Origin: Cellulomonas sp. NS3
GTDB taxonomy: Bacteria > Actinomycetota > Actinomycetes > Actinomycetales > Cellulomonadaceae
DNA: 64,000 bases
Assembly: GCF_024757985.1 (NCBI RefSeq)
Contig: NZ_CP103289.1
Location: 1,054,001-1,118,000 of the forward strand
Reading direction: 5' to 3'
A model generated the notes under the pieces. It searched no databases, was not told the DNA's origin, and was given only the letters and a program-made list of their open reading frames with translations. This document shows, piece by piece, positions 7,869-46,508 of the stretch; within the stretch, counting starts at the first letter, position 1, and every line of letters starts with the position of its first letter. Position numbers and translations under genes: made by a program.

Positions 7869-8924
7869 TCAGGGCACCGGGATCCGCGAGACGGTGAACG
7901 GGCCCGGGGCCTCGCCCGCGTTGCGCTCGCCGAACTGGCTGTTCACCACGAGCAGGCTCCCGCGCACGAGCGCCGCCGTGGTCGGGTCGTCGAACGACGG
8001 GTCGGTCGTCCGGCTGACGACGGTGCCCGACGTCAGGCGCCGGTCGAGCTCGATCGTCACGACCTGCCCGAGGTCGCCCTGGCGCTCGACCGCGTGCAGG
8101 CGCCGGCCGTCGAGCACGAGCCCGTCCCCGGCCACCGCCTCGCCGCCCAGGTCGATGCGCTGCACCGCCCCGTCGTGGAGCCGGACGCGGAACAGCGCCG
8201 CCGCGTTGGACTGCGCGAGCACCGCGTACCGGCCGTCCTTCGTCACGACGATGCCGTTCACGTTGAACCCGGTGGTGTACGTGAGCGCGGTGCCCTCGAA
8301 CGCCACGTGCACCGGCAGCGTCTGCGTCCCCGAGGTCCGCCGGTCGCGCGCGTCGACCCGGTAGAGGAACGGCCGCAGCGAGTCGGTCACGTAGACGTCG
8401 CCCCGCGGGCTCACGGCGACGTCGTTGAGGAACGTCGGCGCGCCGGTCTGCTCGACCTGCCAGGACCCGACGAGCGCGCGCGTCCGCAGGTCGTAGGCGA
8501 ACAGCCGGCCCGTCGCGCCGCCCGCGACGAACAGCGTGCCCCGGTCGACCTTCAGGCCGATGGCGGCCGTGCGCCCGTCGGCCCCGCCGGGCAGGAACGG
8601 CGTCGCGACCGGGTCGTCGAGGTCGCCGCGGTAGATCGTGCCGTCCGTCGTGCTGCCGACGTAGAAGTCGTCGCGCGCGACCGCGACGCCCTCGGGGAAG
8701 ATGTCGTCGGCGGCGTCGCCGACCGGGTCGAGCAGGTAGGTCGTCGGCCGGTCGGGGCCGGGACCGCCGGGGCCGGCGGGGTGGCGGTCGTGCGCACCGG
8801 CGGTGCCGGGCACGAGGGCGACGAGCAGCAGCGCCGCGGCGGCCGCCGACAGCGTGCGGCCCGGGCGTCGGGACGGGCGTGCGGGGGTGCCTGCGGACGT
8901 GCGGGACCTGGGCTGGGAGTGCAT
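7869..8924 (-). CDS. secreted SMP-30/NHL-like beta-propeller protein
   Basis: Protein of 351 residues with a Sec signal peptide: Arg-rich start, hydrophobic core AAAAALLLVALVP, cleavage near GTAGA. The rest consists of repeated beta-propeller blades of the SMP-30/gluconolactonase type, such as EGVAVARDDFYVGSTTDG, FLNDVAVSPRGDVYVTDS and VNGIVVTKDGRYAVLAQS, with acidic residues typical of the metal site. The substrate is unknown; such proteins are often named superoxide dismutase-like or lactonase-like in databases without proof. ATG at 8924 was chosen over an upstream in-frame start because GGAGGGG lies just before it and the signal peptide follows. It stands alone, convergent with the amylase. 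Confidence 0.8.
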   Translation of the reverse strand: MHSQPRSRTSAGTPARPSRRPGRTLSAAAAALLLVALVPGTAGAHDRHPAGPGGPGPDRPTTYLLDPVGDAADDIFPEGVAVARDDFYVGSTTDGTIYRGDLDDPVATPFLPGGADGRTAAIGLKVDRGTLFVAGGATGRLFAYDLRTRALVGSWQVEQTGAPTFLNDVAVSPRGDVYVTDSLRPFLYRVDARDRRTSGTQTLPVHVAFEGTALTYTTGFNVNGIVVTKDGRYAVLAQSNAAALFRVRLHDGAVQRIDLGGEAVAGDGLVLDGRRLHAVERQGDLGQVVTIELDRRLTSGTVVSRTTDPSFDDPTTAALVRGSLLVVNSQFGERNAGEAPGPFTVSRIPVP

Positions 8925-9338
8925 CGGTGGACCCCTCCGTCGACGGGTGCCGTCGGTCCCGTCGGGCGGCGGCCCGCCGTCCCCCGCTGCCCGACGAGGG
9001 CACCGGTCCACGTCGGTCGGACGCGCGGGTCCGCGACGGACCCTGCCGGTGCAGCGCCGTCAGTCTCGCCGAGACGGCGGGTGCCTGCCTCTCGGGAGCC
9101 GCTGCTGCCGCGGCCGAGCGGGTGTCCACGCGGGTGTCCGCATGCTGGCGCCCCGTGAGATGGAGGGGTGGACCGCGACGTATGCTGGGTTCAGCACCTG
9201 TGCGCCCGGCAGCGCCGTGGGCCCCGCGACGTGTTGCACCGCCGACGTGATGATCCGCCGACGCGATGACGGCCACGACGCAGGACCGCGGCTCCAGAGC
9301 TGCCAGGGCCTCCCCGACCCGGAAGGCGTCCGCGTCCC
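8925..9338. other. intergenic region between divergent genes
   Basis: About 410 bases without a supported gene. It must hold the promoters of the leftward propeller gene and of the rightward reductase gene. A TATGCT at 9181-9186 resembles a -10 element, but no good -35 stands at the right distance. A direct repeat of GCGGGTGTCC occurs near 9118-9140. Confidence 0.5.
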
Positions 9339-10736
9339 GTGAGCACGAACCGCACCCTTCGCGTCGCCGTCGTCGGCGCAGGCCCGGCCGGCATCTACGC
9401 GGCCGACATCCTGTCGAAGACCGACCTCGACGTCAGCATCGACCTGTTCGAGCGGCTCCCCGCGCCCTTCGGCCTCGTGCGCTACGGCGTCGCGCCCGAC
9501 CACCCGCGCATCAAGCAGATCATCGTCGCGCTGCACAAGGTCCTCGAGCGCGGCGACATCCGCCTGCTCGCGAACGTCGACTACGGCACCGACCTCAAGC
9601 TCGACGACCTGCGCCAGTTCTACGACGCGGTGATCTTCTCGACCGGCTCGATCCGCGACGCCTCGCTCGCGATCCCGGGCATCGAGCTCGAGGGGTCGTA
9701 CGGCGCCGCGGACTTCGTGTCCTGGTACGACGGGCACCCGGACGTCGCGCGCACGTGGCCGCTCGAGGCCCAGCACGTCGCCGTCCTCGGCGCGGGCAAC
9801 GTCGCGCTCGACGTCGCGCGCATCCTCGCCAAGCACGCGGACGACCTGCTGCCCACCGAGATCCCCGCGAACGTCTACGAGCAGCTCAAGGCCTCGCCCG
9901 TCACGGACGTGCACGTCTTCGCCCGCCGCGGCCCCGCGCAGGTCAAGTTCTCCCCGCTCGAGCTCCGCGAGCTCGGTCACGTGCCGGACGTCGACGTCAT
10001 CGTCTACCCCGAGGACTTCGACTTCGACGAGGGCTCGATGGCCGCGATCCACTCCTCGAACCAGACCAAGCAGGTCGTCAAGACCCTCACGGACTGGACG
10101 CTCAAGGAGCCCGAGGAGAACACCGCGAGCCGGCGCATCCACCTGCACTTCCTGCACAAGCCCGTCGAGGTGCTCGGCGAGGACGGCAAGGTCGTGGGGC
10201 TGCGCACGGAGCGCACGGCGCTCAACGGCGACGGCAACGTCACGGGCACCGGCGAGCTGCACGACTGGCCGGTCCAGGCCGTGTACCGCGCGGTCGGCTA
10301 CTTCGGCTCCCCGCTCGTCGACATCCCGTTCGACGACGTCGCCGGCGTCATCCCCAACCGCGAGGGCCGCGTGGTCGACGTCGACGGCGAACGCGTCCCC
10401 GGCGTGTACGCGACCGGGTGGATCAAGCGCGGGCCCGTCGGGCTCATCGGCCACACGAAGTCGGACGCGAGCGAGACCATCCGCCACCTCACGGCGGACG
10501 CGGGCGACCCGAGCGACCCGGACAACCCGTTCTTCACGGCGGCCGACCGCGACCCGGAGGCGGTCATCGACTTCCTCGCGCAGCGCGACGTGGACGTCAT
10601 CGAGTGGTCCGGCTGGCAGCTCCTCGACGCGTACGAGCGGTCCCTCGGCGAGCCGCACGGCCGTGAGCGCGTCAAGCTCGTCCCGCGCGACCACATGGTC
10701 GCGATCTCGCTCGGCCGGGAGGTCGCGCAGGACTGA
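9339..10736 (+). CDS. fprA: ferredoxin/adrenodoxin-type NADP+ reductase
   Basis: FAD- and NADPH-dependent flavoprotein of 465 residues, cytoplasmic, similar to mycobacterial FprA and mitochondrial adrenodoxin reductase; it passes electrons from NADPH to ferredoxins, for example for cytochrome P450s. The FAD-binding GAGPAGIYAAD is near residue 12, followed by the family signature PFGLVRYGVAPDHP. The second Rossmann site is VLGAGNVALDVAR, and ATGWIKRGPVGLIG near the C-terminus is typical. GTG start after GGAAGG at 9321-9326. No ferredoxin or P450 gene is next to it. A strong hairpin follows the stop. Confidence 0.93.
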   Translation: MSTNRTLRVAVVGAGPAGIYAADILSKTDLDVSIDLFERLPAPFGLVRYGVAPDHPRIKQIIVALHKVLERGDIRLLANVDYGTDLKLDDLRQFYDAVIFSTGSIRDASLAIPGIELEGSYGAADFVSWYDGHPDVARTWPLEAQHVAVLGAGNVALDVARILAKHADDLLPTEIPANVYEQLKASPVTDVHVFARRGPAQVKFSPLELRELGHVPDVDVIVYPEDFDFDEGSMAAIHSSNQTKQVVKTLTDWTLKEPEENTASRRIHLHFLHKPVEVLGEDGKVVGLRTERTALNGDGNVTGTGELHDWPVQAVYRAVGYFGSPLVDIPFDDVAGVIPNREGRVVDVDGERVPGVYATGWIKRGPVGLIGHTKSDASETIRHLTADAGDPSDPDNPFFTAADRDPEAVIDFLAQRDVDVIEWSGWQLLDAYERSLGEPHGRERVKLVPRDHMVAISLGREVAQD

Positions 10737-10737
10737 G

Positions 10738-10760
10738 CCCACTGGGCCCACTGGGCCCAC
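10738..10760. repeat. short tandem repeat after fprA
   Basis: GCCCACTGG is repeated directly, with a nine-base period, immediately after the fprA stop. No function is apparent. Confidence 0.6.
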
Positions 10761-10772
10761 CGCACGCGACAC

Positions 10773-10815
10773 CGCCGACGGCGTCCTGGTCCTCGTGACC
10801 CGGACGCCGTCGGCG
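10773..10815 (+). terminator. terminator of fprA
   Basis: Perfect 14-base inverted repeat (10773-10786 with 10802-10815) with a 15-base loop, 36 bases after the fprA stop. No U-tract, which is usual in this genome type. Confidence 0.7.
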
Positions 10816-10839
10816 CGTCCGGACGGGCTCGCCGCCGCG

Positions 10840-10956
10840 ACGTACCCAGCGCGCGGTGAACCGGCGCAGGAACTCCTGCGTCCGGGGCTCCTGCGGCTCC
10901 CCGAGCACCTGCTCCGGCGTCCCGCGCTCGTGCACGCGCCCGGCGGGCCCGCAGGG
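10840..10956 (-). pseudogene. relic of the C-terminus of a GlnQ/HisP-type amino-acid ABC ATPase
   Basis: The leftward reading contains [14 protein letters not shown] and then RTQEFLRRF, which is the usual C-terminal end of polar amino-acid ABC transporter ATP-binding proteins (pattern EEGTPEQVL..P...RT..FL.RF). The reading is closed upstream by TGA at 10957-10959, and no Walker A, signature or Walker B sequence is nearby. This is therefore a leftover of about 40 codons from a deleted transporter gene rather than a working protein. The assignment rests on recognising the motif, not on a search. Confidence 0.5.
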
Positions 10957-11038
10957 TCAGCACACCGAGGGAACGTCGCCGTGGTCGTGCGCGTTGTCCG
11001 GGGGGAAGCACGCACGGACCGAGGGGAGCGGCGCACGG

Positions 11039-36851: not shown

Positions 36852-37769
36852 GTGACGTACGAGTCGCACGAGTCCGAGCAGGGTGCTGCCGAGACCGAGC
36901 TCGAGGACGCCCTGGCGTCGATCTCGGCGGTCGAGGCGCCCGCAGCGGGCACTGCCGACCCCGCGTCCGACGAGGACACCGCCACCACCGGTGCCGCGGA
37001 CGGCGCCGAGCGCGCTGACGACGAGGCCGACGACGACGACGCGGCCGACGAGGCCGACGACGACGAGCCGGCCGACGAGACCGGGGACGCGCCCGCCGCC
37101 GACGTCGAGGACGACGAGCCCGACGTCGACGAGGACCCCGCCGCCGACGTCGAGGACGACGAGCCCGACGTCGACGAGGACCCCGTCGCCGCGTTCAAGG
37201 CCCAGCTGCGCTCGCAGCCCGGCGACTGGTACGTCATCCACTCCTACGCGGGCTACGAGAACCGCGTGAAGGCGAACCTCGAGAACCGCACGCAGAGCCT
37301 CAACATGGAGGACTACATCCACCAGGTTGAGGTCCCCATGGAGGAGGTGACGGAGATCAAGAACGCGCAGCGCAAGGTCGTGCGGCGCGTGCGGATCCCC
37401 GGCTACGTCCTCGTGCGCATGGACCTGACCGACGAGTCGTGGGGCGCCGTGCGCCACACGCCCGGCGTCACGGGCTTCGTGGGGCACACGCACCAGCCCG
37501 TCCCGCTGACGCTCGACGAGGTCTTCTCGATGCTCGCCCCGTCGCTCACGCCGGCGGCCCCGAAGGCCGGCACGAAGGCCGCCGCCGCGGAGATCAAGGT
37601 CGACTTCACCGTCGGCGAGTCCGTGACCGTCACCGACGGCCCGTTCGACACGCTGCCCGCGACGATCTCCGAGATCAACCCCGAGAGCCAGAAGCTCAAG
37701 GTGCTCGTCTCCATCTTCGGCCGGGAGACCCCGGTCGAGCTGTCGTTCGGCCAGGTCGCCAAGATCTGA
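36852..37769 (+). CDS. nusG: transcription termination/antitermination protein NusG
   Basis: Protein of 305 residues, much longer than E. coli NusG (about 180). The extra part is an acidic N-terminal extension of about 115 residues rich in Asp, Glu and Ala, with a 15-residue block (starting [10 protein letters not shown]) that occurs twice in tandem. The NGN core follows: [21 protein letters not shown], then [14 protein letters not shown] and [11 protein letters not shown]. The C-terminal KOW domain has [15 protein letters not shown]. Binds RNA polymerase and links it to Rho or ribosomes. GTG start; the extension itself is typical of actinobacteria, but its tandem repeat is a local feature. 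Confidence 0.96.
37096..37185 (+). repeat. perfect 45-base tandem duplication in nusG
   Basis: Bases 37096-37140 and 37141-37185 are identical. They code for two copies of an acidic 15-residue block ([13 protein letters not shown] core) in the NusG extension. Confidence 0.95.
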
Positions 37770-38413: not shown

Positions 38414-39136
38414 ATGAGCAAGCACAGCAAGGCGTACCGCGCCGCCGCCGAGAAGATCGAGGCCGGCCGCCTCTACGCCCCGCTCGACGCCGTGCGCCTC
38501 GCGCAGGCGACGGCGACCACCAAGTACGACTCGACCGTCGAGGTCGCGTTCCGTCTCGGTGTCGACCCCCGCAAGGCGGACCAGATGGTCCGCGGCACCG
38601 TCAACCTGCCGCACGGCACGGGCAAGACGGCCCGCGTCATCGTCTTCGCGACGGGTGAGCGTGCCGAGCAGGCCCGCGCCGCGGGTGCCGACGAGGTCGG
38701 TGGCGACGAGCTGATCGAGAAGGTCGCGGCCGGGTACACCGACTTCGACTCCGCCGTCGCGACGCCGGACCTCATGGGCAAGGTCGGTCGACTGGGCAAG
38801 GTCCTGGGCCCGCGTGGCCTCATGCCGAACCCGAAGACCGGCACGGTCACGATGGACGTGGCGAAGGCCGTCACCGACATCAAGGGCGGCAAGATCGAGT
38901 TCCGTGTCGACAAGCACGCGAACCTGCACTTCATCATCGGCAAGGTCTCGTTCTCCGACGTGCAGCTCGTCGAGAACTACGCGGCCGCGCTCGAGGAGGT
39001 CAACCGTCTGAAGCCCGCGTCGTCGAAGGGCCGCTACATCGCGAAGGCGACGTTCTCGACGACGAACGGCCCCGGCATCCTCGTGGACCAGAACCGCACG
39101 CGGAACCTGACCGAGGAGGACACCGAGGCCGCCTGA
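38414..39136 (+). CDS. rplA: 50S ribosomal protein L1
   Basis: L1 of 240 residues, part of the ribosomal L1 stalk and usually autoregulator of the L11 operon. [50 protein letters not shown] and the end region [17 protein letters not shown] are all standard. ATG after AAGGAGAG. Followed by a strong terminator. Confidence 0.98.
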
Positions 39137-39412: not shown

Positions 39413-40756
39413 TCATCTCGGGGCGAGGAGCGCGAGGGGCCGCGCCCACAGCCCCGCGACCCAGGCGAGCTCGTCGTCGTCGGGCTCCTGGGCCCGCGCG
39501 TCGAGCGCGTCGCTCCAGGCGGCAGCCGTCACCACGGTCCTGGCGACCGCGAGCGGACGGTCCGGCTCGGCGTCGCCCCCGTGCGCCCGGTACGCGCGCA
39601 TAAAGCCCGCGACAGGATCGAGGTCCCACGCCGGGTCGAGCGTCGGGGCCAGGTGCACCGCGAGCCAGTCGAGCGCCGTCGCGACGTCCCACCGGGCGTC
39701 ACCGCGTCCGGCGCCGACGAGCTCGGCGCGCGGGCCGGCCGACAGCCCGACGCCACGCTCCGCCCCGAACGCCTCGGACCCCAGCCCGGTCGGCGGCCCG
39801 AGGCCTGACCACGGTCCGCCGGTCGTGGCTCCGCCGCCCGTGGTCGCAGTGCCGCCGGTGCTCGCTGCTCCGCCGGAGGCGAACGGCCCGTCGCCCGGTC
39901 GGTGGCTGCGCACCACGACCACGGCCTCGGGACCCGCGTCGTGCACCCACCGGTCCGCCACCCAGCCCGCGCCCGCCGCGGCGAGCGCGCGCCGGACCCG
40001 CGGGTGCTGCCGCACCGCCCACGCGCGACCGGCGACCGCGTGCGAGCCGTCGCGACGTCCCGTGAGGAGGTCGGGCACGAGCACCCACGGCAGGGCGACG
40101 GCGGGCGCCGTGCCCGGCACCGGGGTGCGGTGCAGCGCGACGAGGCTCTGGGCCCACGCGACGAGCAGGTCGGCGAGCGCCGCGCGGTGCGCGACCGTCG
40201 GCCCGTCGGCGCGCAGCTCGAGCACCTGCTCCTCGAGCTCCCGCACCAGGTCGACCCCCGCCTCCTGCAGGCCGCCCGGGAGCGTGCCCCAGCGGCTGCA
40301 CACGTCGCCCTCGGCGAGAGCGACGGGCCCGGTGAGGTCGCCGGCCCCCGAGGAGGCAGCGGGCCGACGGTGAGGGGCGACCGCGGGGCCGGCGACAGTG
40401 GCATCCGCGACGGTGCCGGGACCGGTGACGGTGCTGGGACCGGTGACAGTGCTGGGGCCCGTGACAGCGCCGGGACTCGTAACAGTGCCGGGGCCCGTGA
40501 GAGCGCCGGAACCCGGGGTCGCGCGAGGCCCCGTGGCGTCGCCGGCGTCCGTGGCGTCACCTCGGCCCGTGACCTCGACCTGCGCTGCGACCTCGCCGCC
40601 GCACCGGCCGGGGGAGCGGGCACCGCGTGCCGTGGAGCCTGCGCCGCCCGCTCCGCCCGTCGTCGCGTCATCGACCGGGCGCACCAGGTGCAGCCCTCGC
40701 CGCGAGGCGGCCCCCCGCGCGCGTCCGCCTCCGGAACGCCCGGCCGTGACCGTCAT
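39413..40756 (-). CDS. degenerate aminoglycoside-phosphotransferase-like protein with hexapeptide repeats
   Basis: Protein of 447 residues. The first 120 residues are low complexity, including six hexapeptides of the GPSTVT type. The rest resembles a kinase-fold phosphotransferase: VAWAQSLVALHRTPVPG, a long middle, then GDARWDVATALDWLAVHLAP and a final helical part. The usual HGDLHxxN catalytic loop is not present, so it is probably an inactive relative or a different protein altogether. It starts five bases after the stop of the protease gene and is probably cotranscribed with it. Function unknown. Confidence 0.5.
   Translation of the reverse strand: MTVTAGRSGGGRARGAASRRGLHLVRPVDDATTGGAGGAGSTARGARSPGRCGGEVAAQVEVTGRGDATDAGDATGPRATPGSGALTGPGTVTSPGAVTGPSTVTGPSTVTGPGTVADATVAGPAVAPHRRPAASSGAGDLTGPVALAEGDVCSRWGTLPGGLQEAGVDLVRELEEQVLELRADGPTVAHRAALADLLVAWAQSLVALHRTPVPGTAPAVALPWVLVPDLLTGRRDGSHAVAGRAWAVRQHPRVRRALAAAGAGWVADRWVHDAGPEAVVVVRSHRPGDGPFASGGAASTGGTATTGGGATTGGPWSGLGPPTGLGSEAFGAERGVGLSAGPRAELVGAGRGDARWDVATALDWLAVHLAPTLDPAWDLDPVAGFMRAYRAHGGDAEPDRPLAVARTVVTAAAWSDALDARAQEPDDDELAWVAGLWARPLALLAPR
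40407..40514. repeat. 18-base minisatellite (six units)
   Basis: Six consecutive 18-base units (40407, 40425, 40443, 40461, 40479, 40497) with point differences. In the leftward frame each encodes a hexapeptide close to GPSTVT. Confidence 0.85.
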
Positions 40757-40761
40757 CGCGC

Positions 40762-42501
40762 TCAGCGTCCCTGCGCGCCGTGGTACCGGGCGGTCAGGTA
40801 GCCGGCCCAGAACGCCTCGGCGAGCTCCCGCCGCCCCGGCAGGGGTCGCGCAGCCGTCGTCCGTCCGGGCCCGCCCGCGCCTGCCGCCTCGGTGAAGGGC
40901 TCGGTGAAGGGCTGGCGTGCGTAGGCCTCGGTGAACGGCTCCGTGAAGGGCTCCGTGAAGGGCTCCGTGAAGGGCTCGGTGAACGGCTGTCGCCCGTAAG
41001 CCTCGGTGAAGGGCTCGGTGAACGGTTCGGTGAACGGCTCCGTGAAGGGCTGGCGTGCGTAGGCCTCGGTGAAGGGCTCGGTGAAGGGCTGGCGTGCGTA
41101 GGCCTCGGTGAACGGCTCCGTGAATGGTTCGGTGAAGGGCTCGGTGAACGGCTGTCGTCCATAGGCCTCGGTGAACGGCTCCGCGAAGGGTTCGGTGAAC
41201 GGCTCCGTGAAGGGCTCGGTGAACGGCTCGGTGAACGGCTGCGCCGCCGTCCCGCCCGCGCCCGACCCCGCCACGCGCCCAGCCGGCACCGCGCGTCGCA
41301 CCCGCGCCGCGACGCCGTCGGACCCGTACCCCGCACGAGCCGCGACCCGCGCCCCGTCAGCCGGCGCCGCCCCGACGCGGCCCCGCACGCCCGCCGTCCC
41401 CGAGGACCCACGCCCCCGTGCGGCGCCCGCACGCGCGCGACGCGCCCGCTTGGCGACCGACCGCCGGGTGGCGATGTCGACGTCGAGCGCGTCGAGCACC
41501 GCGGCGATGGGGTTGGCCAGGCTGAAGCTCCCGTCGTCCTCGCCGGCGAACAGGAGGCCCACGACGCGCCCGCGCTCGTCGACCACGACCGAGCCGGAGT
41601 CGCCTCCCGCCGAGAACCGCTCCTCGTCGGGGCTGCGGTCGATCCGGACCTGGTCGCGCAGCGTCACGAGCCCGGTCTCGCCGCCGAAGTCGATCTGCAC
41701 GGTGAAGTCGACGGAGGTGACGGTCCCGTGGCGCAGCCCGGTCGTGCGTCCCCGCTTGCGCACCGTCTGCCCGACCTTGGCCTTCGCGCGGCCGGTGATC
41801 TCCCCGATCCCGAGCACCGCCGGGTACCACCGGGTGCCGCGCGCGAGCAGCACGGCGGCGGCGTCGACGTGCTCGTCGACCACGGCCCGCTGGAGCGTGC
41901 CGAACCGGTCGGACGGCACCGCCCCGTCGATGCGGGACGGCTGGACCTGCGGGTCGCCCGCACGCCAGCCGGTGTCCACCGCGGCGACGTGGAAGTTGGT
42001 CAGCGCGAGCGCACGGCCGGTGCGGCGGTCGGTCACGAGCGCACCGAGCGTCCCGGCGACCTGGTGGGGCGTGGCGGGGCCCGTCGCGGCGCGCCGGCGC
42101 ACCAGCCGCACCGGCCCGATGCTGGCCCCACCGACCATCGCGCCGTACCGCGTCGTGTCCTCGCTCGCGCCGCCGTGCTCCGGCGCGTAGGGCACCTCGT
42201 GCTGCAGGCTGATCCGGTGCGGGACGACGTCGGTCGGCACCCCGTCGATCGTCGGGGGGATCAGCTCGTCGGCGGGCACCTCGTCGGCGCTCCGCTTCGC
42301 CTGCACGTGCACGACGATCGACTGGGTCCCCGTGGGCAGACCGCCCGAGTACTTCTCGCCGATGTCGACGGCCACGACGCCGGGTCGGGAGATGAGGTCG
42401 TCCTCGGCGAGCCGCTTGACCGGGCGGATCTGCTCGCGGCTCAGCGGGGCCCCCGGCTCCGGGAGGTCGTCGCCGGCGGGCCGGTTCTCGTCTGCAGCCA
42501 T
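40762..42501 (-). CDS. trypsin-like serine protease with PFTE-repeat C-terminus
   Basis: Protein of 579 residues without signal peptide, so probably cytoplasmic. Residues about 1-110 form an N-terminal part ([23 protein letters not shown] onwards). The chymotrypsin-fold core has a full triad: His171 in LTNFHVAA, Asp213 in HVDAAAVLL, Ser302 in GGDSGSVV. A Gly/Ala/Arg-rich linker leads to residues about 421-537, built of 23 tetrapeptides PFTE (one is PFAE) grouped 6, 4, 2, 4, 5, 2 and separated by AYGRQ or AYARQ. The C-terminal tail is helical ([18 protein letters not shown]). ATG at 42501 follows GAGGAGA. Divergent from the sigma factor gene. Function unknown; probably a regulated protease of the island. 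Confidence 0.75.
40889..41242. repeat. 12-base coding repeat array (PFTE repeats)
   Basis: About 117 codons of near-identical 12-base units encoding PFTE, interrupted five times by a 15-base AYxRQ spacer. Units differ mainly at silent third positions (CCG/CCC, ACC/ACG), so the peptide is conserved more strongly than the DNA. Confidence 0.9.
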
Positions 42502-42589
42502 GGGGTGGGGTCTCCTCGGGGGTCGAGCGGGCACGTCGGTGGCGTGCCCGCGGCGGGTGCGCCCGTGAGGAGACGGGTCCGATCCGTCT

Positions 42590-42627
42590 GATACGTCCGT
42601 CCGGAAGACGTTCCCAGGACGTGTATC
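42590..42627. promoter_or_regulatory. imperfect dyad in the divergent protease/sigma promoter region
   Basis: GATACGTCC (42590-42598) faces GGACGTGTATC (42617-42627), an inverted repeat except for a two-base insertion. On the leftward strand GGGAAC (42610-42615) upstream of CGTATC could be an ECF-type promoter for the protease gene (14-base spacer to CGTA, shorter than usual). Suggestive only. Confidence 0.35.
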
Positions 42628-42679
42628 TGGGGCGGCGGGCGGCGCCCCTCTCCCTCGACTCCGACGGCGCCTGGGCGTC

Positions 42680-42709
42680 TTGTCGGGGTTGTCCTGGTCG
42701 CCCTACTGT
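42680..42709 (+). promoter_or_regulatory. promoter of the sigma/CHAT operon
   Basis: TTGTCG (42680-42685) and TACTGT (42704-42709) 18 bases apart, ending 41 bases before the sigma factor start. Confidence 0.5.
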
Positions 42710-42750
42710 GACGGTGGGCGGCCGCCCGACGATTCCCGTGCGAGGGGTCC

Positions 42751-43383
42751 ATGATGAGTGACGACCTGGTCGAGCCGGTCGCTTCCGAGCTCCGGCACCA
42801 GGGCGAGAGCCTGGTCGACAAGGCGGCCCACGCCGTCGTCTCCTACCGCGAGGGGGACCGAGCCCCGCTCGCCCAGCTCGTCGAGGTGCTCACCCCGCTG
42901 CTCTGGCACACCGTGCGTGCCCAGGGCGCCGAGCACGAGCAGGCCCAGGACGTCGTCCAGGGCGTCTGGCTCGCGCTGATCCGTGACATCGACTCGATCC
43001 GCGACCCCCGCGCGACCCTCCAGTGGATGCTCGTGACCGCGAAGCGGGCGGCGTGGCGCGCGGTGCGCAAGTCGCGCGACGACCTCGCGCGCGCCGAGCT
43101 CGACGAGCACGCGACCGACTGGCTCGCCGCCCCCTCCGAGGACCGTCCCGACGTCGTCGCGGTGCGCGACGAGCAGGACCGCATCCTGTGGGACCACGTG
43201 CGCGCCCTGCCCGACCGGTGCCGGTCGCTGCTGGGGCTGGTCGCGCTGGTCGACCGGCCGGACTACGCGGTGGTGTCCCGCGCGCTCGGGATGCCGGTCG
43301 GGAGCATCGGCCCGACGCGCGGCCGCTGTCTCGCCAAGCTCCGGCTCGCGCTCGTCGCGGACCCCGCGTGGGGTGCCCGGTGA
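42751..43383 (+). CDS. sigma-70 family RNA polymerase sigma factor of the CHAT island
   Basis: Protein of 210 residues with region 2 (PLLWHTVRAQGAEHEQAQDVV, LQWMLVTAKRAAWRAV) and region 4 (LPDRCRSLLGLVALVDRPDY, GMPVGSIGPTRGRCLAKL). The helix-turn-helix in region 4 uses PVGSIGPTRGRCL, a pattern of small sigma factors found beside CHAT or TPR proteins in actinobacteria. ATG at 42751 after GAGGGG (a second ATG follows at once). Overlaps the next gene by GTGA. No anti-sigma factor is recognised; one of the next two proteins may take that role. Confidence 0.87.
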   Translation: MMSDDLVEPVASELRHQGESLVDKAAHAVVSYREGDRAPLAQLVEVLTPLLWHTVRAQGAEHEQAQDVVQGVWLALIRDIDSIRDPRATLQWMLVTAKRAAWRAVRKSRDDLARAELDEHATDWLAAPSEDRPDVVAVRDEQDRILWDHVRALPDRCRSLLGLVALVDRPDYAVVSRALGMPVGSIGPTRGRCLAKLRLALVADPAWGAR

Positions 43384-43883
43384 CGGCGGACGACCGGGCC
43401 GTCGCCCGGTACGCGACGGAGCCCATGGACGACGGCGACCTCCAGGTCCTGCGTCGCCTCGCCGTGATCGTCGACCGGGTGGACCCGGTGCCCGCGGGGC
43501 TCGTCGACCGCATCGGCCTCGCGCTCACGATCGACGCGCTGCACACCGAGATGGCGGAGCTGCGCATGATCGGCACCCCCGAGCTCGCGCTGCGGTCCGA
43601 CGAGGCGAGCATCGAGGCCGTGACGATCACGTTCACCACGGACGTGCTCACGGTGATGATCACGGTGCACGCCGAGGCGGACCGCGTGCGCGTCGACGGC
43701 TGGGCGGCGCCCGCGGGCGAGCTGGCCGTCGAGCTGCACCAGGGCGGCCGGATCGAGCGCGTCACGTCGGACGCGGACGGGCGGTTCTCCTTCTCGGACC
43801 TCGGCCGCGGCCCGGCCCGGCTCGTGCTGCGCCGGCCGGAGCAGCCGGACGTCCCCGTCGTCACGCCGCAGATCGAGCTCTAG
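43380..43883 (+). CDS. small linker protein between sigma factor and CHAT peptidase
   Basis: Protein of 167 residues. The N-terminal half is acidic and helical (LQVLRRLAVIVDRVDPVPAG, DRIGLALTIDALHTEMAEL), similar in place and character to anti-sigma or adaptor parts. The C-terminal half is beta-rich, with GRIERVTSDADGRFSFSDLG, the core of carboxypeptidase-regulatory-like (Ig-type) domains. GTG start overlaps the sigma stop (GTGA); the CHAT gene follows six bases later. Probable adaptor between sigma factor and CHAT protein; not proven. Confidence 0.65.
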   Translation: MTADDRAVARYATEPMDDGDLQVLRRLAVIVDRVDPVPAGLVDRIGLALTIDALHTEMAELRMIGTPELALRSDEASIEAVTITFTTDVLTVMITVHAEADRVRVDGWAAPAGELAVELHQGGRIERVTSDADGRFSFSDLGRGPARLVLRRPEQPDVPVVTPQIEL

Positions 43884-43889
43884 CGGACG

Positions 43890-46508
43890 ATGCCCCCGCC
43901 CGACGGCCCGCGCACCGCGCCGGTCGCGCTGAGCAGCTTGGCCGACGCCGTCGACCGTGCGGTCGCGGAGAACGCCGACGGTCAGCCCGCCCGTGCGGCG
44001 CGGCGGCTGCGCCCGGTGCTGCGGGCGCTCGACGACCTCCCGGGAGGGACGGACGTCGAGCGCCTGCGGTCACGCGCGGCGATCGAGCTCGTGAAGAGCG
44101 ACTTCGAGCTCCGCGGGGACGTCGGTGCACAGCTCGCGCGGCTCGGCCAGCTCGCGGCGGACCCCGGCGACGTGCGCGGGGGGTGGCCGGGGCGCGAGCC
44201 GGCGCTCGCGGGCCTGCGGGGGCTGCTGTACCTGCGCGCCGGGCGCATCGAGGACTCGCTGCGCGAGCTCGACGCCGCGGTCGGGGCGATCGACGCGGCC
44301 GACCCGATCGACGCGTGCCGGGCGCTGCTCAACCGCGGCGTCCTGCACATGGACCGGGGGGACCTCGGGCTCGCGCGTGCGGACCTCGCCGAGTGCGCGC
44401 GGCGGGCGCTCGACGCGGGGTTCCCGCGGCTCGTGTTCAAGGCGCAGCACAACCTCGGCTACCTCGAGTTCCTGGCCGGACGGCTGCCGCTCGCGCTCGA
44501 GCGCATGGAGGCCGCCGCGCGCAGCCTGCCGGGCCCGGCGCGGGCTATCGCGCTGCTGGACCGGGCCCGGGTGCTCCTCGAGGCGGGACTGGTCGCGGTC
44601 GCGGACTCGACGCTCGCCGAGGCCGCCGAGATCTTCGCGGCCGACCGGCTGCCGCACGACCTCGCGGAGGTCGAGCTGGCGCGGGCCGAGTGCGCGATGC
44701 TGCGGGGCGACGTCGAGCAGGCGCGGGCGTTCGCGGCGTCGGCCCGGCGCCGGTTCGCGCGGCGCGGCGACGAGGCCTGGGTGCTGCGCGCGACGCTGCT
44801 CGGGCTGCAGGTCGAGACGGCGGCGCTCGAGGCGCGGCCCGACGAGCTCCCGGTCGCCGACGCCGCGGCCCGCCGCGCGTGGGGGTCGGTGTCGTCGCGC
44901 GCGTCCCGGCTCGCGGAGCAGTGCCGGCGGTCGGGCCGGCCGGTGTGGGCGTACGCCGCCTCGCTCGTCGCGCTCGAGGCCGACCTCGCCCGGGGTGCGC
45001 TCGCGGACCCCGGGGCCTGCCTGGCCGCGCTCGGCCCGGTCGCGGCGGGCGACCCCATCTCGGTGCGCCTGCACGGCCGCCGCGTCCGGGCCCTGCTCGC
45101 GCTCGCGGCGGAGGACCCGGCGCGGGCCGGGCGGCACGTCCGCGAGGGCCAGCGGGACCTCGGCGTGCACCGGGCCCGGTTCGGGTCGCTCGACCTGCGC
45201 ACGGCCGGCGCGGTGCACGGCACGCAGCTCGCGCGCATGGACCTCGACCTGGCGCTGGCCTCGGGGCAGCCGGGTGCCCTGCTCGACGCCGCCGAGCGCA
45301 CCCGCGCGGTGGTCGGCGGCGCGCAGCGCGTCAACCCGCCGCGGGACCCGGACTCCGCGGCGCTGCTCGCCGAGCTCCGCCAGCTCATCGACGGGGCCCG
45401 GGAGGTCATGACGCGGCCCTCGACCGACCGGGAGCGCACCCGCGTGCGGCGCGAGGGGCTGCGGCTGAAGCAGGCGATCCTCGCGCGCTCGTGGCACCGC
45501 TCCGGCGACGTGGGGGAGGACCGGGTCGGCACGCTGCGCGAGGTCCGAGCCGCCCAGCGCGCCCGCCCGGGGACGACGGTGCTCGACGTCCTGGAGCACC
45601 GGGGCCGGCTGCTCGCGGTGCGCGTCCAGGACGACCGCGTCGAGCTGCACGAGCTGGGCGACGCCGACCGTGCGCGCGAGCAGACGCGGCGCGTGCACGC
45701 GGACCTCGAGGTCGTCTCGAACCCGCTCGTGCCGCAGGAGCTGCGCGCCGCCGCCGGTCGCTCGCTCGAGCGGGGCCTCGACGTGCTCGGCGCGACCGTC
45801 GACGTGGTGACCCGCACGCCCGAGCGGCTCGTCGTCGTCGCGAGCGGCTGGCTCGGGCTCCTGCCCTGGTCGATGCTCGCCGCGCGCCGCGGCCTCGCGA
45901 CCGTCGTCGCGCCGTCGGTGCACCACTGGCTCACCTACGCGGGCTCGGCGTCGGTGGCGCCGCTCGCGGTCAGCACCGTGGCCGGGCCCGGCCTCCGGCA
46001 CTCGGCGACCGAGGCGGAGGAGGTCGGTCGGCTCTGGCCCGGGTCGACGGTCCTGACGGGGGACGGCGCGACGTGCGCCGAGACGATCCGGCTGCTCGCG
46101 AGCCCTGGGGTCGTGCACCTCGCTGCGCACGGGCGCCACGAGCCCGACAACCCGCTGTTCTCCTCGGTGCGCCTCGCGGACGGGCCGCTGTTCGCCCACG
46201 AGCTCGACGCCGGCGGCTCGGCCCCGCAGCTCGTCGTGCTGTCGTGCTGCGAGGTCGGCCGGTCGAGCGTGCGCCCCGGCGGCGAGGCGCTCGGCCTCGC
46301 GAGCGTCCTGCTGCGCGCCGGGGTGGGCTGCGTCGTCGCCGCCATCGCGCCGCTGCCGGACGAGACGGCGCTGCGCGTGATGACCCGGCTGCACGGCCTG
46401 CTGCGCGCGGGCGTGCCCGTCGCGGACGCGCTCGCGGTCGCCACGAGCGAGGGCAGCGCCGTCGACGGCACGCTCGTCCCGCTCGTCTGCCTCGGCGCGC
46501 CGGTCTGA
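43890..46508 (+). CDS. TPR-CHAT caspase-like peptidase
   Basis: Cytoplasmic protein of 872 residues. Residues about 15-470 are helical repeats of the TPR type (for example [41 protein letters not shown]). Residues about 560-872 form a CHAT domain of the caspase/separase clan: His747 in [17 protein letters not shown] and Cys787 in [10 protein letters not shown], followed by [16 protein letters not shown] and [10 protein letters not shown]. Both catalytic residues are present, so it should be active, presumably triggered by something bound to the TPR part. CHAT peptidases are known partners in bacterial self-destruction and signalling systems. Its proximity to a divergent trypsin-like protease and to a sigma factor is the reason to treat the island as one system. 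Confidence 0.85.

Follow-up and report, generated by a model that had tools for sequence, protein, structure and literature searches.

We analyzed a 64,000-nucleotide stretch of the Cellulomonas sp. NS3 genome (4.78 Mb, one contig), hereafter the window, in which five genes fill the interval from rplA (38414-39136) to rplJ (Table 1). P1 and the gene for a trypsin-like protease (PROT) are encoded leftward; the genes for an extracytoplasmic function (ECF) sigma factor (SIG), a small protein (LINK), and a tetratricopeptide repeat (TPR)-CHAT peptidase (CHAT) are encoded rightward, with the start of LINK overlapping the stop of SIG (GTGA, 43380). An earlier reading of this DNA made without database searches (the sequence-only reading) had described these five open reading frames (ORFs), and their coordinates, catalytic residues, and the GTGA overlap were all borne out on recheck of the window. 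In a sample of 119 related genomes, 63 carried CHAT relatives and 56 carried none. Among 20 of these 56 that were checked, rplJ adjoined rplA inside a 1.5-kb flank in 16 and was not seen within that flank in four, in agreement with the earlier statement that the two genes normally lie close together; the island replaces this short gap. Sequence comparison with these and other actinobacterial genomes indicates that the island is no oddity of Cellulomonas but its form of a module that recurs in actinobacteria.

Table 1. Features of the rplA-rplJ island and the evidence for each (positions are those of the window).
Feature	Position	Strand	Basis or description
P1, second in the PROT operon and probably the remnant of an APH-type kinase	39413-40756	-	Profile comparison, alignment, position
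PROT	40762-42501	-	Trypsin-like (Nal1-related) protease with C-terminal peptide array
C-terminal WAGY motif behind the array	40798-40809	-	Sequence comparison with L301, L330, and other Cellulomonas PROT
PFTE array	40888-41238	-	23 units (one is PFAE) in blocks separated by AYARQ/AYGRQ; residues 422-538
Candidate ECF-type promoter facing PROT	42568-42594	-	GTATCAG-N15-CTCCT
Candidate ECF-type promoter facing SIG-LINK-CHAT	42623-42649	+	GTATCTG-N15-CCCCT
Second, housekeeping-like promoter candidate	42680-42709	+	TTGTCG-N18-TACTGT; the promoter reading is our own
SIG, ECF sigma factor	42751/42754-43383	+	Sigma70_r2 PF04542, 5.6e-7, above cut-off; TIGR02937, 1e-12
LINK, candidate anti-sigma factor	43380-43883	+	Alignment and model: three helices and Ig/CnaB-like sandwich
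TPR-CHAT peptidase	43890-46508	+	PF12770, 3.8e-26; His747 codon 46128-46130, Cys787 codon 46248-46250

On its profile matches, SIG can be classed as an ECF sigma factor having only sigma-70 regions 2 and 4; the TIGR02937 match spanned residues 40-201, and region 4 had no Pfam match of its own. The structural prediction of LINK (predicted local distance difference test score, pLDDT, of 81.9; weak stretch at residues 60-77) showed three helices followed by an eight-strand Ig/CnaB-like sandwich, which agrees with the Ig-like end previously assigned to this small protein. A fold search with the model returned no PDB match at E≤0.001 (best E, 6e-3), and family searches returned no match named Csx30. 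The nearest homologue among the named records listed was that of C. cellasea, with 98% identity. The third rightward product, judged from profiles and its predicted structure, has the composition of a TPR-CHAT peptidase, namely a CHAT domain and a His/Cys dyad behind TPR repeats; its TPR matches were under the Pfam cut-off. His747 and Cys787, reported earlier as intact, were invariant across 23 aligned CHAT proteins. The model (pLDDT 86.3) contained a long helical array and a separase/Csx29-like protease, with separase and Csx29/TPR-CHAT (8eey_B, E 9.5e-14) as best fold matches and, at lower rank, the transmembrane anti-sigma factor DdvA and Phr-bound Rap (6t46, 6.9e-6). The order of a helical array and then a CHAT/separase-type protease with a His/Cys dyad is common to the separase/caspase-like clan CD peptidases, from which the island differs in being a bacterial operon with a sigma factor.

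PROT matched Nal1_C (1.1e-5) and Trypsin_2 (1.8e-4) in Pfam, both under the cut-off. Its His171/Asp213/Ser302 triad, as the sequence-only reading had described it, was kept in all 14 aligned PROT-type proteins, a set of our own selection. PROT shares its catalytic core and triad with Nal1-like trypsin-fold proteases and differs from them in its PFTE array, WAGY end, and ECF sigma factor/CHAT neighborhood. The 23 array units were spelled by seven different DNA 12-mers with one amino-acid change, so that recent duplication alone does not account for the array; a "repeat tail" had been named in a test proposed earlier, but this array of 23 PFTE units had not been listed. The C-terminal end [FY]W[AS]GY was found in the PROT proteins of loci L301 and L330 and in 8 of 12 others from Cellulomonas, with near variants in three more; the PROT of L213, as called, lacked it. 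In the draft genomes of L207, L208, and L220, PROT runs into the contig end, and the array lengths there are therefore lower bounds or cannot be read off. A second PFTE-repeat protein in the genome of the window was considered and rejected, as a protein search of the tail against that genome returned only itself (E 2.3e-49; next match, 0.69).

Gene sets of this composition recurred in other genomes. The 60 neighborhoods of CHAT relatives that we inspected (L031-L090) included 36 with SIG, LINK, one CHAT, and a subtilase (S8), six with SIG, LINK, two CHAT, and S8, and six with SIG, LINK, CHAT, and PROT; the remaining 12, as annotated by our gene caller, lacked one or other component. Searches at E≤0.001 detected LINK-like sequences in 103 of the 394 genomes of the class and in 26 of the 296 genomes of the phylum, although the weakest of these matches may be other Ig-like proteins. 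Among 40 such loci fetched, 25 held SIG, LINK, S8, and CHAT within the stretch and seven held other subsets. A scan of named genomes gave 211 relatives; in the best 80 of these, SIG, LINK, and CHAT were joined by S8 in 61 loci and by PROT in 13, all five occurred together in one, and five had no CHAT in the stretch covered. Because rplA or rplJ adjoined the module in 69 of the best 80 of 211, including Frankiales and Pseudonocardiales metagenome-assembled genomes (MAGs), the rplA-rplJ site is an old home of the module. The module was also found away from this site in Nocardioides, Phycicoccus, Occultella, and others. Full-length PROT (>280 bits) was detected in nine of the 119 relatives, at the rplA-rplJ site in eight and elsewhere in G100, and all nine also carried a CHAT gene, which supports the earlier idea that the two arms belong together. 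The recurrence of the same five genes elsewhere, which had been put forward as a check, was seen only in part: the set recurred at and away from rplA/rplJ, but with a serine protease that was mostly a subtilase. Within the part of the literature covered, we found no description of such a module combining an ECF sigma factor, a subtilase or trypsin, and CHAT.

The subtilase (PF00082, 1e-16 for L039) was sited between LINK and CHAT or before SIG, and a divergent PROT was present in all 15 named Cellulomonas loci holding LINK. In the CHAT tree (137 rows, FastTree), one 16-row clade with support of 100 held all 13 PROT-only rows, together with two rows in which PROT was cut by a contig end and L217, which has both proteases; 71 of the 73 rows of its sister were of the S8 type. 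This topology fits one replacement of S8 by PROT. Outside the 16-row clade, PROT adjoins a complete S8 module in G723, and G025 (L059), from the same family, has a subtilase at the rpl site and a CHAT from another clade. L217 (Cellulomonas sp. 73-92) carries two sets at one rplA-rplJ site: first PROT, a leftward LINK, SIG, and S8, with a rightward CHAT, and then SIG-LINK-CHAT.

Tandem peptide units were borne by both protease folds. Those of S8 (for example PYTQPF, PFTQPL, PYTDPH, PFTEPH, PVTSGH, NPFHAS, GYGDGV, and PFWGGH) lie directly before the catalytic domain, and the PFTE or PFTQ units of PROT lie after it. By a rule that misses two-copy or spaced units, 56 of 109 S8 proteins (that of L078 is probably spurious) and 16 of 17 PROT proteins with LINK and CHAT adjoining had arrays of three or more units. 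Units were mostly 4-6 residues long, alike within one array, and different between lineages. Codon differences between units numbered 1313 synonymous versus 401 nonsynonymous in S8 and 332 versus 211 in PROT. Of the 56 S8 arrays, 29 contained three or more copies of P[FY][ST] and 16 contained three or more of P[FY]T[EQD]; a single core common to all arrays was rejected, as the remaining S8 arrays differ. That two unrelated protease folds bear arrays at one locus suggests that the array is the element recognized within the system.

The sequence-only reading had also suggested that the sigma factor controls the protease arm. Upstream of SIG, two copies of a promoter-like motif, GTATCWG-N14-16-CYCCT, lie back to back, one facing PROT and the other SIG. 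When this gap was aligned across the window and 14 loci of Cellulomonas, a set from which the start rule excluded L218, two inverted blocks appeared in most of them, and TTGTC-N18-TANNNT before SIG was largely conserved among the aligned Cellulomonas. Counting sites in the 400 bp ahead of the called first gene or within its initial 90 bp, we found the motif for 36 of 131 nonredundant operons; the reversed motif preceded none, and the mean of 50 block shuffles was 0.0. All fetched loci, redundant ones included, contained 78 sites of the CTCCT form, of which 38 faced SIG, 12 faced S8 as first gene, 12 faced PROT, and 16 faced something else or nothing labelled. Further copies were located near the module in L056, L150, L151, L155, L157, and L278. 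The motif is conserved and oriented, yet not universal; the suggested control accordingly gains a conserved promoter-like pair pointing both ways but not a motif in every operon. An alternative form, AGGAG-N16-AGATAC, was dropped because nearly all near-SIG copies in subtilase-type loci would then point outward from the operon; the GTATCWG-N-CYCCT reading orients them toward it. A genome-wide pattern search in the genome of the window returned five sites (backward control, 0), two of which were the divergent pair; the others lay at a DedA-like gene, an FAD oxidoreductase, and one unclear gene, the names being taken from sequence reading. A rough calculation by hand from the base composition puts the chance expectation at 2-3 sites, and these three are therefore not claimed as a genome-wide regulon.

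Based on these data, we tentatively propose, with somewhat less than even confidence, that the module is an ECF-sigma switch gated by proteolysis. In this scheme LINK would restrain the sigma factor through its helices. The superhelix of the CHAT protein would bind the peptide array carried by the serine protease and so bring the two proteases into one complex. A signal would then set off proteolysis, LINK would be cut, and the released sigma factor would fire from the paired GTATCWG-N15-CYCCT elements, raising both arms. Sequence analysis established which genes make up the set and that they recur, the promoter-like pair, the replacement of the subtilase by a trypsin-like protease, and the arrays on both folds; we infer the anti-sigma role of LINK, the docking, the order of cleavage, the signal, and all biochemistry. 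Equally conjectural is the idea of the sequence-only reading that one peptidase activates or restrains the other. The nearest tested analogue is CASP, the type III-E CRISPR accessory module (Csx29, Csx30, and CASP-sigma). There, Csx30 inhibits an ECF sigma factor that has its motif in its own locus, and Csx29 cleaves this inhibitor (PMC10028731). The island shares with CASP a TPR-CHAT peptidase, an ECF sigma factor, a partner gene, and predicted control of its own promoter, and its CHAT model matches Csx29; if the analogy holds, LINK would play the part of the inhibitor, and CHAT would dock on the array. Unlike CASP, the island, to which this comparison was confined, has neither Cas7-11/gRAMP nor a CRISPR array in its gene list, LINK gave no match named Csx30 in family searches, and the set includes a serine protease with a peptide array. 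If the proposal is correct, protease-released ECF sigma control by a TPR-CHAT peptidase, demonstrated for CRISPR type III-E, would be a free-standing chromosomal switch across actinobacteria.

Several observations weigh against this proposal. LINK matched no known anti-sigma factor in family and fold searches, and the CHAT fold matches were all at low template modeling score (query 0.2-0.5), with the part matching DdvA and Rap not located. Eight of the 40 fetched LINK-like loci, some at contig ends, contained only SIG and LINK and neither protease within the stretch, and L079 and L090 are CHAT loci without an adjoining protease. The motif as written was lacking from 95 of the 131 operons. The arrays differ in position between the two folds, 53 of the 109 S8 proteins had none by the rule used, and none was seen in the two-CHAT Promicromonospora and Antribacter loci, so that an array is not needed everywhere. 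Moreover, the codon counts overstate constraint, because the arrays were chosen by amino-acid likeness.

A rival reading of the array involves the second gene of the PROT operon. P1 and two homologues had no Pfam match, but homology searches linked the P1 family to intact APH kinases (hhalign probability 99.4, E 5.7e-22; phmmer down to 1.1e-9). The HGD motif, kept in most Cellulomonas homologues, is lost in P1 (WVHDAG), and the N-lobe and second acidic motif are missing in the aligned Cellulomonas homologues. P1 thus looks like an eroded, apparently dead member of a family akin to the APH kinases, so that its earlier description as phosphotransferase-like holds for kinship but probably not for activity. 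In L301 and L330, an APH gene occupies the corresponding position after PROT. L301 (G723) contains an operon PROT-APH-HopA1-LanC (Pfam: APH, 1.4e-20; HopA1, 8.1e-19; LANC_like, 1.8e-25; weak LxmK, 4.5e-6) head to head with S8-SIG-LINK-CHAT. L330 (G100) has the same four genes (HopA1 by Pfam, 9.7e-15; the rest by local profiles); this operon may be foreign, as G100 is 88% complete with 7% contamination and the operon lies on a different contig from its S8 module. The PROT tails of L301 and L330 contain nine and eight Cys, versus one and zero in the core, and every tail Cys (9/9 and 8/8) is preceded by [ST][RK] at a distance of no more than six residues; PFTE occupies this region in the window. 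These operons resemble class V lanthipeptide synthetases (LxmK/CaoK kinase and LxmY/CaoY HopA1 lyase) in combining APH, with intact catalytic motif, HopA1, and LanC in one operon, and differ in that the presumed substrate is a protease tail rather than a short precursor. The window has only the eroded APH, neither HopA1 (PF17914) nor LanC was found in its genome, and its PROT tail has Thr but no Cys. In other lineages, genes facing away from the promoter-like motif encode APH (L169 and L259) or HopA1 (L276 and L281), and HopA1 and LanC adjoin the S8 module in Occultella (L042/L303).

These findings allow the array to be read as being, or descending from, the core of a ribosomally synthesized and post-translationally modified peptide (RiPP), in which APH would phosphorylate Thr/Ser, HopA1 would eliminate the phosphate, and LanC would cyclize the product onto Cys, the pathway having decayed in Cellulomonas. 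We regard this as a serious possibility, although short of probable. In addition to the two operons, their Cys spacing, the position of P1, and the Occultella arrangement, it draws on CaoK (APH-like) and CaoY (HopA1-like), which together dehydrate Ser/Thr (PMC9486802). However, HopA1 was found in only four of the 119 relatives: it stood beside S8 or PROT in G084 and G100, far from the module in G070, and in G024 without any CHAT match. Only two such operons were seen, one of them possibly foreign, no unit of the 56 S8 arrays contained Cys, and at least eight of these arrays lacked Ser/Thr, which weakens a RiPP reading of all arrays. Given this rarity of HopA1, the absence of HopA1 and LanC from the genome of the window, and the array compositions, chemical modification of the tail was likely confined to a few lineages and lost in the window. 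A more specific version, which we consider rather doubtful, is that the class V-type kinase, lyase, and cyclase of G723 and G100 cross-link the Thr/Cys-rich tail of PROT by (methyl)lanthionines, so that the RiPP would be an enzyme and not a secreted peptide. The cross-linked array would serve as a lock or docking ligand for the TPR-CHAT peptidase under a dedicated ECF sigma factor, and the window would be a stripped-down descendant, with PFTE replacing the core and the dead kinase as a fossil. If so, the L301 and L330 operons would bring an enzyme tail, and not just secreted peptides, within the range of RiPP chemistry.

The short, lineage-specific units, alike within each array, together with the match of the CHAT model to Rap with bound Phr, would also fit the release of units as signal peptides that bind the TPR part of CHAT, as Phr peptides bind Rap. 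This is very unlikely, since TPR folds widely match one another, the array lies inside or behind the protease, and no signal peptide was seen when the PROT and CHAT starts were read by eye. Patchy presence at one site could instead point to an abortive anti-phage or programmed-death system, in which infection would activate the proteases and kill or stall the cell; we consider this unlikely, as a search of the five window proteins against PADLOC-DB 2.0.0 gave no model match (best, a weak DpdI match of E 0.027 to SIG) and the relatives gave only weak subtilase, IetS, and BovA matches. The link to bacterial conflict systems raised in the sequence-only reading is accordingly conjectural. That unrelated genes were inserted by chance between rplA and rplJ, where most CHAT-less relatives checked have the short gap, is scarcely credible because the gene set recurs, at this site in many genera and away from it, and the operons have a promoter-like motif in common. 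The proteolysis-gated ECF-sigma switch is our preferred reading.

Additional homologues of the island genes were observed elsewhere. In the genome of the window, L300 (G000:C1:401500-412500) encodes a PROT paralogue with a 39% identical core and the triad kept; no CHAT, sigma, or LINK gene was labelled in the 11 kb fetched. The PROT homologue of L302 (G665:C30), divergent from a CHAT gene, bears a decapeptide array, EPHYQAVTGL, inside its protease domain. No PROT-APH-HopA1-LanC-type operon was found by local profiles around the homologues L363-L366, L368, and L369; L367 gave two short gene calls only, the gene caller being tuned to GC-rich DNA. HopA1 genes away from any module (L332 in G024 and L331 in G070) have nearby short ORFs with a GYTAY leader, two of which in G024, each of 69 residues, end in DNTFDHGC; these look like ordinary class V precursor genes. 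L051 (G000:C1:2835000-2852000), also in the genome of the window, contains a second TPR-CHAT gene, 35% identical, and a divergent subtilase gene without a detected array; the two form a related but separate pair. In the MAG locus L246, a 737-residue protein with a secretion-signal-like start (8785-10995) lies between CHAT and rplJ. Finally, the window encodes at 36852-37769 a NusG with an acidic N-terminal extension containing an internal repeat.

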